NCBI RefSeq assembly: GCF_001693255.1
Contig: NZ_CP016474.1
Coordinates: forward strand, 1,134,661-1,198,660
Direction: 5' to 3'
DNA: 64,000 nucleotides
Source of the DNA: Picosynechococcus sp. PCC 7003
Lineage (GTDB): Bacteria > Cyanobacteriota > Cyanobacteriia > Cyanobacteriales > MRBY01
Part shown: piece by piece, positions 2,602 through 37,256 of the stretch
Layout: each line of letters opens with the position of its first letter
How positions within the stretch are numbered: the stretch's first letter is position 1
Program-made: the position numbers and the translations under genes
The notes under the pieces: model-generated
What the model was told of the DNA's origin: nothing
What the model saw: only the letters and a program-made list of their open reading frames with translations
The model's database searches: none

Positions 2602-2607
2602 TTATTG

Positions 2608-2694
2608 CCATAGCTAGGGGTGTCTGTCATAGGAATCAGACTGAGATAGTCCCTTAGAACCTGAGACTGGGTAATACCAGCGTAGGGAAGCTGT
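2608..2694 (+). promoter_or_regulatory. TPP (thiamine pyrophosphate) riboswitch
   Basis: The segment carries the conserved THI-box blocks in order: AGGGGTG (2616-2622), CTGAGA (2641-2646), CCCTTAGAACCTGA (2651-2664), and CTGGGTAATACCAGCGTAGGGAAG (2667-2690), which is the pyrophosphate and HMP sensing core. AGCT at each end can close P1. It sits directly before thiC, a classic target. The AGAGGA ribosome-binding site (2699-2704) follows within a few bases and no terminator hairpin intervenes, so control of translation initiation is the likelier mechanism: TPP binding would sequester the start region. Confidence 0.97.
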
Positions 2695-2708
2695 TAATAG
2701 AGGATTAA

Positions 2709-11862: not shown

Positions 11863-12426
11863 ATGGCGCTATTCAATTCCAACTTACTGGAGCCAAACTT
11901 AATTTTAGGGAAAACCATCTTGCATCTCAGTCCAGAGATTATCCGTCACTACCGTTTAAAGGGTTTGATCCTTGATGTGGATGACACATTGGTTTCGATG
12001 CGCCAGAGCTATGCCTCAGATGATGTCTTGCAGTGGGTGACCCAAGTAAGACGGGTAGCTGATATTTGGCTCGTGAGTAATAACCTCAGCCAAAAACGCA
12101 TTGGGCGGATTGCCGAGTCCCTGGAGTTGCCTTATTTGTTCGGGGCGAAAAAACCCTCTCGAAAAAAGCTCCGTAGAGCGATGGACGCGATGGATCTGCG
12201 CCCCCAGGAGGTGGCAATGGTTGGCGATCGCCTTTTTACCGATGTCCTCGCCGGTAATCGCCTGGGTTTATTTACGATTTTGGTCGAACCAATGATGGAT
12301 CCCCTCGTGGCGACGCGACAACACCCAGTGCGGAATGTCGAAGTCTGGATTTCAAAATTCCTTGGCGCTTCCTTTGATGACATGAAACAAACCTTTACAA
12401 AAGGGCACAAAAGTAAATCTAAATAA
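11863..12426 (+). CDS. YqeG-family HAD-IIIA phosphatase
   Basis: HAD motif I is GLILDVDDTLVSM (nucleophile Asp in DxD), motif II is WLVSNN, and motif III/IV is KKPSRKKLRRA followed by VAMVGDRLFTDVLAGNRLG. These fit the YqeG subfamily (B. subtilis YqeG, plant PGPP1), several of which dephosphorylate phosphatidylglycerophosphate in PG synthesis. PG is essential for photosystems, so that role is attractive but inferred. At 187 aa, length is normal. Confidence 0.9.
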   Translation: MALFNSNLLEPNLILGKTILHLSPEIIRHYRLKGLILDVDDTLVSMRQSYASDDVLQWVTQVRRVADIWLVSNNLSQKRIGRIAESLELPYLFGAKKPSRKKLRRAMDAMDLRPQEVAMVGDRLFTDVLAGNRLGLFTILVEPMMDPLVATRQHPVRNVEVWISKFLGASFDDMKQTFTKGHKSKSK

Positions 12427-12451
12427 ATATAAAAAAAATGTTACGAATCTG

Positions 12452-12480
12452 TTGAGATTGGCAATAATCAGGCATAATCT
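12452..12480 (+). promoter_or_regulatory. near-consensus sigma-70 promoter in the yqeG-smc gap
   Basis: TTGAGA (12452-12457), exactly 17 bp spacer, TAATCT (12475-12480). Both hexamers match consensus at four or more positions. It points away from any protein gene: only the convergent smc lies downstream, on the other strand. Confidence 0.6.
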
Positions 12481-12486
12481 TTTACA

Positions 12487-12597
12487 GAAAATATAACAAG
12501 GGATCGCCCAATATATATAGATCCCAACATAATAAACCACTAAAATTCTTTTCAACTTGTTTCGTTCGGGTCGATTCCTCAGGGGATCGATTTTTTG
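12487..12597 (+). ncRNA. candidate small non-coding RNA, about 110 nt
   Basis: A promoter at 12452-12480 would start a transcript near 12487. The transcript carries a 5' hairpin (GGGATC 12500-12505 with GATCCC 12520-12525, 14-nt AU-rich loop), about 45 nt of mostly unpaired CU/A-rich sequence, and ends in a strong intrinsic terminator at 12571-12597. No ORF with a start and ribosome-binding site fits. It does not match Yfr1, Yfr2, 6S or tmRNA signatures I know. The remainder of the gap (12598-12851) shows nothing else. This is an inference from architecture only. Confidence 0.5.
12571..12597 (+). terminator. intrinsic terminator of the small-RNA candidate
   Basis: TCGATTCC - TCA - GGGGATCGA (8 to 9 bp stem with one wobble and a tight loop) runs straight into TTTTTT. 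It lies 145 bp past the yqeG stop, too far to be the usual terminator of that gene, and has the wrong orientation for smc. Confidence 0.75.
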
Positions 12598-12851
12598 TCT
12601 GTTTTGGGTAAAATAACAGCGTTTCTTCTGGTTTTCCGCGAAAATCGTTACAGACCGAAACCAAAGAAAACATTTATCAATATTCCGAAAAGCGCAACTA
12701 GCTAAAGGTAGATTTATTTCGTCGATTAAGTTTAAATACCTATTTCCAAATCAGGATTTCTTAATTTTGGCATTCTAAAGAGGGGTTATTGCCTGTTAAA
12801 CAAGTCCGACAAATGGCACGAAAAAATGGCGATCGCCACCCCCCAAAAGCA

Positions 12852-15800
12852 TCACAATTGAATCCCTAAAACTTGGGTATAGGCCCCCCGGGCTTGGGTC
12901 ACCCCAATGGTGCGCTGGGAAGCCTCGATCATCGGCCGCCGCAGACTGACTACCAAAAATTGTGCCTGGGCCGCCTGTTGCTTAATCATTTTAGAGAGAC
13001 GCTCCACATTGGCCCCGTCTAAAAACATATCCACCTCATCAAAGGCATAGAAAGGGGAGGGACGATAGCGCTGGAGTGAAAAAATAAACGATAGGGCCGT
13101 GAGAGATTTTTCGCCCCCAGACATAGAACTGAGCCGCTGTACCAGTTTCCCTTTGGGGTGAGCCACCAAGTTCAAGCCCCCCGCAAACGGATCCGTCGGG
13201 TCATCTAATTGAAGATAGCCATCGCCGTCGGAGAGGGTGGCAAAGATTTTTTGAAAATTTTCGTTGACGGCATCGAAGGCTTTTTTAAATTCCTGGAAGC
13301 GGCGGGTGGTAAAACGTTCGATGCGGGCCAGGACTTCGAGGCGTTCCTGTTCGAGGGTAGTTAGTTTCTCGGATAGCTCCCTAAGGCGGATTTGGGTTTG
13401 TTCATATTCCTTGAGGGCGAGCATATTGACCGGCTCTAGGTCTTCAATTTTCTTTTGGGTGCGACGGCTGGCCCGCTGTAGTTTTTCGATCTGTTCTGTG
13501 ATCTCCTGGAGAGCTTGGTCGAGTTTTTCGGGGATTACCTCCAGCACCAGATGAGTCGGATCAAGATCCGCCGGCAGTTCAGCTTCCTGGGCTTGGAGTT
13601 GCTGGTGCAGTTTTTCGAGTTGTTGCGCCCGTTCCTGTTGTTGGGTTTGCAATTTCTCCAGACGCCATTGCACATCTTGGTGTTGTTTTTGAAGATTTTT
13701 GAGCTGGATCTCCGTCTGATCCCGCTGTTTTTTGACGTCGCCCATCTGGGCCGAGAGTTCCGTCAACAATGTTTCGGTGGTTTGAATTTCCGTATCGATT
13801 TGATCGAGTTGGGTTTGGATGACGGCGATCTGGCCCTGGAGATCTTCGAGGTGGGTTTGGGTTTCCTGGAGCCGTTGTTCGTCGTTGGTTAATTTTTCAC
13901 TGAGACGAATCAGCTGGGCGTCGCGGTCTTGGATCGTTTGCTGGGTGCTGTTGAGGGTCTGGAGCGCCGTTTGGAGATGACTTTCCTGGGTTTTGATTTC
14001 CCGTTGAATCCCTTGCCATTCCCGGTGGGTTTGCTGGGCTTCGAGTTGGGCGAGATGTTGTTGTTGGGTCGTCAGTTGTTGTTCGAGCTTGGGAATCTCT
14101 AGGGCGAGGCTTTCTCGGCTGGTCTGGGCGATCGCCAATTCGTTTTGAGATTGCTGCTGCTGTTGCTGGCTTTGTTCAAGTTGGGGGCGCAATTTTGCCA
14201 GGGATTTCGTGAGTTGCGCCTGGTGCAGTTGGGCTTCCCGTTCCCGTTGGCGGGCTTGGGTTAGTTGCTGGCTGAGATCCTGGAGGCGATCGCCTTTGTC
14301 GAGGAGGGCATTTTCGGTGTAGCGCAACAGGTGCTCAATTTCTTCGAGGCGTTCGCGCAGGGCAACAATTTCCGCCGAATCCCCCGTGGCCATGCTGCCG
14401 AAATGGAGGGTTGATTTTTGGGAGAGACTCCCCCCGGTCATCGCTCCCGTGGTCTCTAGGAGTTCGCCATCGAGGGTGACAATGCGGGTTTGCCCCATAA
14501 AATTCCGGGCGAGATCAAGGCTTTCAAAGACGGCGGTACTGCCAAAGACGTAGCGAAAAATATTTAGATAACGGCGATCGCATTGAATCAGGTTAACGGC
14601 AAAATCAACAAAGCCCTGGGCGTAGCGGGGAATGGTGTTGGTGTGCAATTTCGGGGCGCGGATTTTATTCAGAGGCAAAAAAGTAGCACGGCCCGCCCGC
14701 TGATTTTTTAGGAGTTTGATCCCCATCGCCGCCGTTTCATCATCTTCGACAACAAGGTAACCGAGGCGACCCCCAGCGGCAATTTCCAAGGCCCGTTGGT
14801 AAGCTTTTTCCACTTGACCCAGTTGGGCGACTAACCCATGGACACCGAGTAAATTGGCATTCAAAATCACCTTTGTGGCGTAGGTGCCCTGGGCTTCCTG
14901 TTGGGCCTGGGAGAGGGCTTCGAGTTGATCCAGTTGCCGTTGTTTGTCCCGCTGTTCCCGCTGGAGGCGATCGCCAGTTTCCTGGTCGAGCTTGCGGCTT
15001 TCTTCCAGTTGGGCAAACTGTTGGGCGAGGGTTTGAATGGTTTCCTGCTGACGGATGATCTCCGTTTGGGCCGTGGCTAATTCTGTGTCCTGTTGGGTGA
15101 TATCGGCGCTAAATTGGGCGATTTGCTCGGTTTGGCTAGTGATATTTTGCTGAAGCTGACTAATGCGTTCCTGGAGGAGGGCTTGCTCGGTGCGTTGGGG
15201 ATTGAGCTGGTCTTGGATGCCTTGAATATCCTTGGCGATCGCCGCCTGTTCCTGTACCCAAGCTTCCGAAGAACTGGCTAACTCATCGGCCCGTTGGCGA
15301 CTGTCTTGGAGGATTTTTTCAGCGGCAGCTTGGGCGGCCTGGTGTTGGGGGAGGGTTTCTTCTTGGAGGGTGAGTTTTTCTTCTTCGAGGCGTAGGAGTT
15401 GTTGCTGGTTGACCTGGACCGTTTCTAAAAGTTGGCGGTGGAGTTGGAGCGATCGCCGTTGGTCTTCCTCCAGTTCCGTTTGCCGCTGGCTCCATTGGTG
15501 CCGTTTTGCTTTTTGGGTAGCCAGTTTGGAAGCGACCGAAAGCTGTTCATCTTCCCCGAGGGCTTTCACCTTGGCGTTCAAGCTTTCTAGGGTTTGGCCC
15601 GTCTGGAAAATTTCTCCATCTAAGGCGTTGAGGCTTTGGGTTAGTTGGGTGCGTTCCTGGGCACTGCTGGCGAGATCCCGTTGGAGTTTCTCTTCTTGCA
15701 GTTGGAGCGATCGCCAAGTCAAGAGAATTTCTTCCTGCTGCTGGCGAGCCAGGTCAATTTTGAGCCGTTGGTATTGTTCAGCCTTGAGGCGATCGTCGGC

Positions 15801-16481
15801 CAGCTTTTCTAAATTCCGTTCTAGCTCCTGGCGAATAATGTGGCATTTTTCTTCCCGTTCCTTCACCGCATTGAGAGTTTCCCTAGTCTGGGTAATTTTG
15901 CGGTCAAATTCGGCGACCCCTGCCAGTTCATCGATAATTTCGCGCCGTTCCCGCCCATTCATCGTAATAATCCGCGTCACATCCCCCTGGAGCACGACGT
16001 TATAGCCTTCGGGGTAAATGCGCAGGCGATTCAGTTGTTCGTGGAGTTCTGTAGCGGTACAGGGCTGGTCATTAATGTAATAGGTCGATGCATAACTGCC
16101 GCTTTTGGTAACCCGGAGTTTGCGCGTCACCGTCCAATCATGGCTCTGGAATTGCGCTAAAAAGTCCTTTAATTCCGAAGCTTCTGTGGCTTCTGTTTGA
16201 TATTGCTGGGCCAGGTCACTGAGATCAAAGGTAACTGACACCACCGTTTCCGCAGAACCTTTCCCTTGGCTGTGTTTGTGATTGATCAAGTCCGGCAACC
16301 GTTCCGCCCGCATTCCCTTAGAACTGGCGAGGCCCAAGCAAAACAAAATGCCGTCGAGGATATTGGATTTTCCAGAACCATTTGGCCCAGAAACCACCGT
16401 AAAACCAGGACGTAGGGGCACAGCGACGGTACCACCGAAGGATTTGAAGTGGGAAAGCTCGATTTGCTTGATGTGTACCAT
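12852..16481 (-). CDS. smc: chromosome segregation protein SMC
   Basis: The 1209-aa SMC ATPase condenses and organises the chromosome as a ring with ScpA and ScpB. N-terminal head: FKSFGG and Walker A GPNGSGKSN near residue 35. Two long Gln/Glu-rich coiled coils flank the hinge (about residues 525-690, with GRATFLPLNKI and a glycine-rich GAMTGGSL segment). C-terminal head: signature motif LSSMSGGEKSLTALS and Walker B FYAFDEVDMFLD. Length and order are complete. It is transcribed alone, with a 196-bp gap to the divergent glycosyltransferase. Confidence 0.98.
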   Translation of the reverse strand: MVHIKQIELSHFKSFGGTVAVPLRPGFTVVSGPNGSGKSNILDGILFCLGLASSKGMRAERLPDLINHKHSQGKGSAETVVSVTFDLSDLAQQYQTEATEASELKDFLAQFQSHDWTVTRKLRVTKSGSYASTYYINDQPCTATELHEQLNRLRIYPEGYNVVLQGDVTRIITMNGRERREIIDELAGVAEFDRKITQTRETLNAVKEREEKCHIIRQELERNLEKLADDRLKAEQYQRLKIDLARQQQEEILLTWRSLQLQEEKLQRDLASSAQERTQLTQSLNALDGEIFQTGQTLESLNAKVKALGEDEQLSVASKLATQKAKRHQWSQRQTELEEDQRRSLQLHRQLLETVQVNQQQLLRLEEEKLTLQEETLPQHQAAQAAAEKILQDSRQRADELASSSEAWVQEQAAIAKDIQGIQDQLNPQRTEQALLQERISQLQQNITSQTEQIAQFSADITQQDTELATAQTEIIRQQETIQTLAQQFAQLEESRKLDQETGDRLQREQRDKQRQLDQLEALSQAQQEAQGTYATKVILNANLLGVHGLVAQLGQVEKAYQRALEIAAGGRLGYLVVEDDETAAMGIKLLKNQRAGRATFLPLNKIRAPKLHTNTIPRYAQGFVDFAVNLIQCDRRYLNIFRYVFGSTAVFESLDLARNFMGQTRIVTLDGELLETTGAMTGGSLSQKSTLHFGSMATGDSAEIVALRERLEEIEHLLRYTENALLDKGDRLQDLSQQLTQARQREREAQLHQAQLTKSLAKLRPQLEQSQQQQQQSQNELAIAQTSRESLALEIPKLEQQLTTQQQHLAQLEAQQTHREWQGIQREIKTQESHLQTALQTLNSTQQTIQDRDAQLIRLSEKLTNDEQRLQETQTHLEDLQGQIAVIQTQLDQIDTEIQTTETLLTELSAQMGDVKKQRDQTEIQLKNLQKQHQDVQWRLEKLQTQQQERAQQLEKLHQQLQAQEAELPADLDPTHLVLEVIPEKLDQALQEITEQIEKLQRASRRTQKKIEDLEPVNMLALKEYEQTQIRLRELSEKLTTLEQERLEVLARIERFTTRRFQEFKKAFDAVNENFQKIFATLSDGDGYLQLDDPTDPFAGGLNLVAHPKGKLVQRLSSMSGGEKSLTALSFIFSLQRYRPSPFYAFDEVDMFLDGANVERLSKMIKQQAAQAQFLVVSLRRPMIEASQRTIGVTQARGAYTQVLGIQL

Positions 16482-31537: not shown

Positions 31538-31623
31538 TGCGGAACGCGAGACTTGAACTCGCAAGGGATAAAACTCCCACTAGAACCTGAATCTAGCGCG
31601 TCTACCAATTCCGCCAGTTCCGC
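31538..31623 (-). tRNA. tRNA-Leu (CAG)
   Basis: The minus strand folds as a class II tRNA: acceptor GCGGAAC/GTTCCGC with discriminator A, D arm with AATTGGTAGA, anticodon stem CTAGA/TCTAG with loop TTCAGGT (anticodon CAG), a long variable arm, and T arm GTTCAAGTC. 86 nt, CCA not encoded. It lies between the divergent trmH and murA genes in a 357-bp gap. Confidence 0.96.
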
Positions 31624-37169: not shown

Positions 37170-37256
37170 CGGAGAGGGGGGGATTCGAACCCCCGTCCGA
37201 GTTGCCCCGAAACCTGATTTCAAGTCAGGCGCATTCAACCGCTCTGCCACCTCTCC
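37170..37256 (-). tRNA. tRNA-Ser (TGA)
   Basis: The minus strand gives acceptor GGAGAGG/CCTCTCC with discriminator G, D arm GGCAGAGCGGTTGAATGCGCC, anticodon stem CCTGA/TCAGG with loop CTTGAAA (anticodon TGA), a long variable arm and T arm GGTTCGAATCC. 87 nt, class II, CCA not encoded. Confidence 0.97.

Follow-up and report, generated by a model that had tools for sequence, protein, structure and literature searches.

The stretch between yqeG and smc in Picosynechococcus sp. PCC 7003 (NZ_CP016474.1) raises the question of whether it holds a gene of its own, and of what kind. It was studied as part of a window of 64,000 nt, in which the element lies on the plus strand. A first-pass annotation had described it as an orphan transcription unit with a candidate small RNA, and this description is supported here as far as sequence allows. 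The features of the locus are collected in Table 1.

Table 1. Features of the yqeG-smc locus, in positions of the window
Feature	Position	Strand	Remarks
yqeG (YqeG family HAD IIIA phosphatase)	11863..12426	+	conserved upstream neighbour at yqeG-type loci; outside the RNA gene
Upstream promoter stretch, AAATAT + AAAAAAAATGTTACGAAT	12425..12448	+	probable activator site; its 18-letter part, 12431-12448, has 12 of the 15 fixed letters of the family block AAAGAAANNATTANGAAA
-10 element CATAAT	12473..12478	+	in six of six genus genomes
Predicted small RNA	12485..12600	+	about 115 nt; ends predicted from the positions of the -10 and T run, to within some nt
5' hairpin GGGATC / 14-nt loop / GATCCC	12500..12525 (12500-12505 / 12520-12525)	+	conserved core of the family
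A/U-rich linker	12526..12567	+	poorly conserved, except around ATAA directly after the stem
Intrinsic terminator	12568..12596	+	11-bp stem 12568-12578/12583-12593, T run 12591-12596, -12.3 kcal/mol
smc	12852-16481	-	opposite strand to the element

The neighbours had been read correctly, yqeG ending upstream of the element (at 12426) and smc lying on the opposite strand, and the intrinsic terminator, an 11-pair stem running into the T run, was found where it had been placed. The claim that no reading frame crosses the element holds for the plus strand, for which the ORF list of the window includes none of at least 40 aa overlapping it, and fails for the minus strand, where two ORFs of 67 and 63 aa overlap. 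The promoter had been given as TTGAGA (12452-12457) and, 17 nt further, TAATCT (12475-12480). These letters are present, although the term near-consensus was too strong for a site absent among the 10 listed at a cut-off of 9/12 matches. As a -35, TTGAGA did not hold up, being conserved in only two of the six genus genomes (G000, G002), and the conserved -10 hexamer reads better as CATAAT than as TAATCT. A scan of the window's own sequence found 7 terminator-like sites versus 8.0 expected in shuffles, and the fold of the RNA at 12487-12600 has a z of -1.73, with 11 of 200 shuffles equal or better. One genome alone is weak evidence, with features within chance, and it is the comparison with relatives that decides.

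In the genus, the hairpin GGGATC/GATCCC and the -10 element are present behind yqeG in all six genomes examined, so that the 5' stem does persist in the relatives that keep yqeG, as the first-pass annotation had asked of a real RNA. The genes for a methyltransferase and for yqeG precede the element at all six loci, and smc was found at four, one of the two misses being at a contig end. A 17-nt core, AAATATAACAAGGGATC, running from AAATATAAC into the stem, is identical in the six genomes, while the position of the terminator holds differing hairpins (AGCTACTTCC/GGAGTAGCT in G001, AGCCATTTC/GAAATGGCT in G003 and a less regular one in G005). The fold of the genus alignment has exactly two stems, the 5' hairpin and the terminator. 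Covariation is uninformative inside the genus, because the 5' stem does not vary there. The paired changes expected in both stems were seen for the 5' stem in wider relatives, and the terminator was found to be replaced by hairpins of other sequence.

The distribution of the element was followed with two covariance models and a consensus pattern. Model R1, built from genus sequences only with the promoter included, was too narrow and matched 11 of 388 genomes of the order; its matches in G222 and G330 lie away from yqeG and were put down to chance. R1 also reached three genomes of the genus g8, presumably Synechocystis, in which the element lies behind yqeG and its stem has G-C in place of an A-U pair. 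The yqeG gene is present in 376 of the 388 genomes, and a wider consensus, approximately TTCAAATG[G/A]GGTCAGCYNANATAAAGACC[C/T]TAANNATAA, was derived from stretches downstream of it, 20 of which were read by position. A scan with this pattern gave at least 116 stretches in named genomes, including, among the matches listed, Nostoc, Fischerella, Calothrix, Microcoleus, Microcystis, Lyngbya, Leptolyngbya, Spirulina and others; a few of the matches listed are outside cyanobacteria, and these are taken for chance or wrong binning. In the first 80 loci among the matches listed, yqeG ends within 400 nt upstream at 25 of 82 sites. One locus (L111), on a contig filed as Candidatus Gracilibacteria, has yqeG and the RNA in their cyanobacterial form and was probably wrongly binned, and another (L131) has the RNA twice behind a single yqeG, at a spacing of about 290 nt, with a terminator-like hairpin after each copy.

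Model R2, built from 33 hairpins including the one of the window, had matches in 85 of 386 genomes of the phylum when strict filters were set. A smaller set, restricted to genomes with a completeness of 95% or more and scored more fully, gave matches in 22 of 40 class genomes, from 17 families. R2 also matched 37 of the 54 yqeG loci tested, some of them training rows, at about 60-190 nt behind the yqeG match. Because R2 has no match in 18 of the 40 class genomes and at 17 of the 54 yqeG loci, the family is not universal, at least in the form that this model sees; diverged copies that R2 did not list were found behind yqeG in G317 and G320 (family f33), for example with the stem AGAGTC/GACTCT. 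In the genome of PCC 7003 the hairpin was found only once in a search with E values up to 10, and thus no mRNA leaders sharing it were found there. For counting, 203 unique clusters were reduced to 177 loci by a stem-letter filter, with identical sequences entered once; the loci do not stand for independent genomes. Excluded from this set were L007-L020, as weak DNA matches, and L028, L029, L130 and L164, as matches considered due to chance. Judged by these comparisons, the element belongs to a widespread family that has more than one locus and in which the hairpin can be repeated in tandem.

The 5' hairpin is the part in which the family shows its structure. In an alignment of 33 sequences, 97.4% of cells pair versus 90.5 in shuffles, the cells changed on both sides number 22 versus 6.6, and the covariation score is 0.328 versus 0.191, each value being reached by none of 500 shuffles, although kinship among sequences can by itself exceed shuffles without any structure. 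Two of the five measures do not exceed the shuffles: doubly changed pairs number 3 versus 2.5 (reached by 296 of 500 shuffles) and further pair types 6 versus 6.6 (reached by 487 of 500). When the partner is shifted by one column, pairing falls to about 50%, and a second, model-aligned set, which shares rows with the R2 set, has 16 double-changed cells versus 4.5. By score and by double-changed cells, compensatory pair changes are therefore above control, as looked for in a conserved structured RNA. Alignment A4 was chosen by a pattern restricting some stem letters to R or Y, and L025 is out of it, MAFFT having set its stem off by one. Versions of the stem include GGGGTC/GACCCT, GAGGTC/GACCTT, GGGATC/GATCCC, GGAGTC/GACTCC and GGAGCC/GGCTCT, among others; since the hairpin finder demanded pairing, its counts are no proof of pairing, and it is this variety that is the evidence. 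At one position of the stem, 185 of 227 hairpins have a G-U pair, as fits an RNA and not a DNA palindrome.

The loop is 10-15 nt long with a variable apex, and its near-invariant letters form short runs at both ends. On the 5' side these are A in 218, G in 192 and C in 204 of the 227 hairpins, and on the 3' side U is at the fourth place from the end in all 227, a place at which the finder accepted A or U. The finder itself imposed the C-G closing pair and the final A's of the loop. One hairpin was counted at 129 of the 177 loci, two at 46 and three at 2, making 48 tandem loci by a filter that misses imperfect second hairpins. The tandem hairpins have different stems and similar loop ends, as in one array of three (GGAGTC/GACTCC, GGGATC/GATCCC and GGGGTC/GACCCC). 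Behind yqeG in G014 and G098, three hairpins with three self-complementary stems share the AUAAA loop end (L250, L251). Outside the genus of the window, a leader, GTTCAAAT, is conserved together with the loop ends; in the genus of the window and three Synechocystis-like genomes this leader has diverged. From the first stem to the end of the terminator, the middle half of the loci measure 97-147 nt. Across the loci the stem changes in pairs, and the linker and terminator sequences are free to change.

Upstream of the hairpin, the family has an 18-letter block, AAAGAAANNATTANGAAA, within a conserved stretch of about 24 bp. At least 12 of its 15 fixed letters are present at 160 of the 177 loci, versus 21 of 177 when each locus is letter-shuffled once, an excess that is somewhat flattered because the block was derived from the counted loci themselves. 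In 120 of the 160 loci the block starts 62-66 nt before the stem, and it is more conserved than the sequence adjoining it. Between block and stem, the clearest further signal is a TG-N-hexamer with A at position 2 and T at position 6, which is an extended -10, without a -35. The sequence TNANGAAA is found twice in the block, eleven bases apart, giving the look of an 11-bp direct repeat, and regulators of the OmpR/PhoB type often bind such direct repeats. Within 120 nt downstream, a hairpin of -15 kcal/mol or lower is present at 158 of 175 loci, versus 9 in shuffles and 3 upstream, and a hairpin of -12 kcal/mol or lower whose eight following bases include four T or more at 125 of 175, versus 9 in shuffles; two of the 177 loci have too little flank for these counts. 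Fold energy replaced a stricter terminator finder (perfect stems, five T in seven), which had given 25 of 175 versus 4.6 in shuffles and 0 upstream.

The block is kept in different gene contexts. Within 900 nt upstream and on the same strand, the neighbour is yqeG at 68 of the 177 loci, DUF3493 at 57 and neither at 39, with too little flank at 13, and the block is kept at 64, 53, 31 and 12 of these, respectively. In G448 (L238, 188-2627) the nearest convincing upstream genes are divergent and a gene follows on the same strand; these neighbours are taken here to be a divergent rubredoxin-like/ycf48-like pair upstream and an sfsA-like gene on the other side. According to its Pfam description, DUF3493 is Low psii accumulation1 / Rep27 (LPA1/REP27), and yqeG also matches the profile of phosphatidylglycerophosphate phosphatase, so that several neighbours may be related to photosystem II or its lipids, possibly by chance. 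A second type of locus (L087, L085, L097, L136, L150) has a weaker block of 10-12 out of 15 and an upstream sequence resembling TTTGATGGGAATCTAAATAG; the copy at L087 is on a plasmid of Calothrix sp. PCC 7716.

Sites of known regulators were scored in the 177 loci by the best match to their motifs. Compared with letter shuffles, no enrichment was found for the NtcA site, GTA-N8-TAC (4.15 versus 4.44 out of 6, with 5 out of 6 in the window), for the HLR1 of RpaB (10.2 versus 10.24 out of 14) or for the Fur 19-mer (10.83 versus 11.03 out of 19), and the Pho box was slightly higher (9.8 versus 9.18 out of 16). The promoter of the window (12400-12495) has a 12/14 match to the HLR1 motif, which the family as a whole does not have, and because of this match RpaB is possible as a regulator of the window's member. 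Searched with one mismatch in eight genomes, the block had 12 matches versus 4 for the reversed-pattern control in G320 and one versus none, at the RNA, in G448; it was not above control in G000, G001, G012, G303, G317 and G037, the blocks at the RNA in G000, G001 and G012 being too diverged for such a search. No clear regulon is indicated by these counts.

Because the promoter block, the hairpin or hairpins and the terminator-like hairpin stay together in different neighbourhoods, here it is proposed that the element is, in all probability, a free-standing small-RNA gene that has a promoter and a terminator to itself and belongs to a family across the class Cyanobacteriia. The features looked for in an independent small RNA are its own promoter signal, the lack of a long sense ORF, its own terminator and different contexts, and these were found. 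That the element is merely the 3' UTR and terminator of yqeG, perhaps a processed fragment, agrees with the 68 of 177 loci that have yqeG upstream on their own strand at up to 900 nt; it is very improbable in view of the 57 loci behind DUF3493 and the 39 with neither gene within 900 nt, mostly with the same block, of the divergent upstream genes in G448 and of a block more conserved than the adjoining sequence. A site acting as DNA without any RNA, such as a protein-binding palindrome or a replication or segregation site, would account for an inverted repeat near smc in the genus, and the upstream block does itself resemble a DNA-binding site. This explanation is more improbable still, as the stem changes in pairs with G-U dominant at one position, the loop is not symmetric, the same strand continues into a terminator-like hairpin, and smc, present at four of six genus loci, was not recognised downstream at the selected wider loci. 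The least credible of the alternatives, given next to no weight here, is a short mRNA for a micropeptide starting from an AUG at the base of the stem: ATG is present there at 77 of the 177 loci, TTG at 20 and GTG at 2, against ACG at 59 and AAG, the triplet of the window, at 10, and the position varies with its stem partner (UA 20, CG 7, other 6; n=33). The variable loop length of 10-15 nt and reading frames of very different length also speak against this candidate, which was rejected. A leader or riboswitch of the downstream gene was also rejected, as smc is on the other strand and the downstream genes at the selected loci differ, many of them being on the opposite strand.

If the element is such a small-RNA gene, transcription would start near 12485 from a promoter of the extended -10 type, which would depend on an activator bound at the block, and would end near 12597. 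The hairpin would then dock a protein that reads the C-G-closed stem and the loop ends, AGC on the 5' side and UAAA-like on the 3' side, and the RNA would titrate or recruit that protein in the manner of CsrB/RsmZ, with a different protein; in part of the family, tandem copies would raise the number of docking sites. A protein partner is favoured because tandem hairpins with differing stems and similar loop ends look like a repeated recognition element, although the capacity for titration would be low, since most members, the window's included, have one hairpin. Given a small-RNA gene, the role of the hairpin as a protein-docking module is granted slightly less than an even chance. The main competitor, a trans-acting small RNA whose hairpin loop or single-stranded leader would pair with mRNAs, is a serious possibility held with less conviction. 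Cyanobacterial small RNAs do act in this way, PsrR1 and IsaR1 being described as acting on target mRNAs (PMC6202907) and NsiR4 likewise, and the conservation of the leader GTTCAAAT and of the loop ends outside the window genus is consistent with it. Against it, the window genus and the three Synechocystis-like genomes have a different leader, the tandem hairpins keep their loop ends and change their stems, and the near-invariant loop letters are limited to runs at the two ends, which are short for a base-pairing seed. The first-pass annotation had placed the pairing region in the centre (12526-12567), described as CU-rich; this centre has A+U at 31 of 42 positions and C+U at 25 of 42, and is unlikely to serve for base pairing, because it is the least conserved part of the family and it is the 5' hairpin that is conserved instead. 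Overall, a small-RNA gene with a protein-docking hairpin is considered the best explanation, with moderate confidence.

Known RNA families do not account for the element. In the whole window, the 4227 families of Rfam 15 gave at gathering score only a TPP riboswitch (2606-2705, plus strand, 69.6 bits with a gathering score of 54.3) and two tRNA genes (31538-31623 and 37170-37256, both on the minus strand), none over the element. At lax E values (E<=10 for 12400-12900, E<=5 for 11 loci and E<=3 for 6 loci) all matches were far below gathering, the mir-221 model overlapping the window's terminator at 12.9 of the 46.6 bits of its gathering score. In the main text of open-licence papers no published small RNA tied to yqeG was found, nor one tied to DUF3493 among the papers listed, nor a matching named small RNA, and the letters of the family motif gave only one 10-letter string, in unrelated work. 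The RNA may well be an unnamed entry in published tables of start sites. From its letters and its distribution, the candidate is a new family of a known kind, the bacterial small RNA, and an unusually widespread one.

Among the described cyanobacterial RNAs, Yfr1 has a conserved unpaired CACUCCUCACACC (PMC4734099) and was rejected as CACUCCUCACACC is absent from 12485-12600 and from the family consensus. The Yfr2 family is similar in comprising short free-standing RNAs at several loci per genome with their own start behind unrelated genes, and in having a conserved 12-nt hairpin loop, a wide occurrence in cyanobacteria and a suspected binding of protein (PMC2662882). Yfr2 has motifs resembling GGA/ANGGA on a long bulged stem, in contrast to the AGC...AUAAA loop on a stem of 6-7 bp, possibly in tandem, found here; Yfr2 was rejected, as the present loop starts with A-G-C (218, 192 and 204 of 227) and ends with U-A-A/U-A, GGA motifs being absent. 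PsrR1/SyR1 and SyR2 of Synechocystis are also described as starting on their own downstream of a protein gene of the same strand, at the fabF-hoxH and apcC-prmA loci (PMC2662882). They were rejected because all five g8 genomes, with g8 assumed to be Synechocystis, have one R2 match each, behind yqeG. Sye_sRNA1 is likewise conserved over many cyanobacteria at few syntenic places and differs in its length of about 200 nt and its position, mostly behind psbD or cobB (PMC6091082).

Other conserved cyanobacterial small RNAs of roughly similar size, namely IsaR1, NsiR4 and PmgR1/Ncr0700, were compared by their descriptions. IsaR1 is 68 nt long (PMC6202907), and for Ncr0700 an aligned stretch of 195 nt is reported. 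For IsaR1 the comparison covered its description and the Fur score before the present family, given above. IsaR1 is reportedly controlled by Fur. An NtcA-activated small RNA like NsiR4 was rejected for the lack of NtcA-site enrichment (with 5 out of 6 in the window). CsrB, RsmY and RsmZ are protein-titrating RNAs with repeated hairpins. Part of the present family resembles them in its repeated hairpins with the same loop ends, two or three at 48 of 177 loci and one at 129, imperfect second hairpins being missed; it differs in that the GGA loop motif for CsrA/RsmA is absent and the window's member has one hairpin. Attempts to identify RsmA/RsmE in cyanobacteria had no success (PMC2662882).

Few regulatory RNAs have so far been recognised as conserved throughout the cyanobacteria. 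That this one is of old cyanobacterial origin, serves to titrate or recruit a hairpin-binding protein, is switched by a dedicated activator at the block and, judging by its neighbours yqeG and DUF3493 and in one genome a ycf48-like ORF, is tied to the upkeep of photosystem II or the thylakoid is doubtful when taken as a whole; if true, it would be, to the authors' knowledge, the first hairpin-sponge system in the phylum. With the covariance model, dRNA-seq, Term-seq and Grad-seq data that already exist for model strains can be searched, and the strict promoter block offers a handle on its putative regulator. Furthermore, the modular hairpin may serve as bait for an RNA-binding protein, in a phylum for which the search for RsmA/RsmE homologs has been unsuccessful (PMC2662882). 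The presence of the RNA in many families, with its own block across different neighbourhoods and the multiplication of its hairpin in several lineages, would lead one to expect that it has a basic task.
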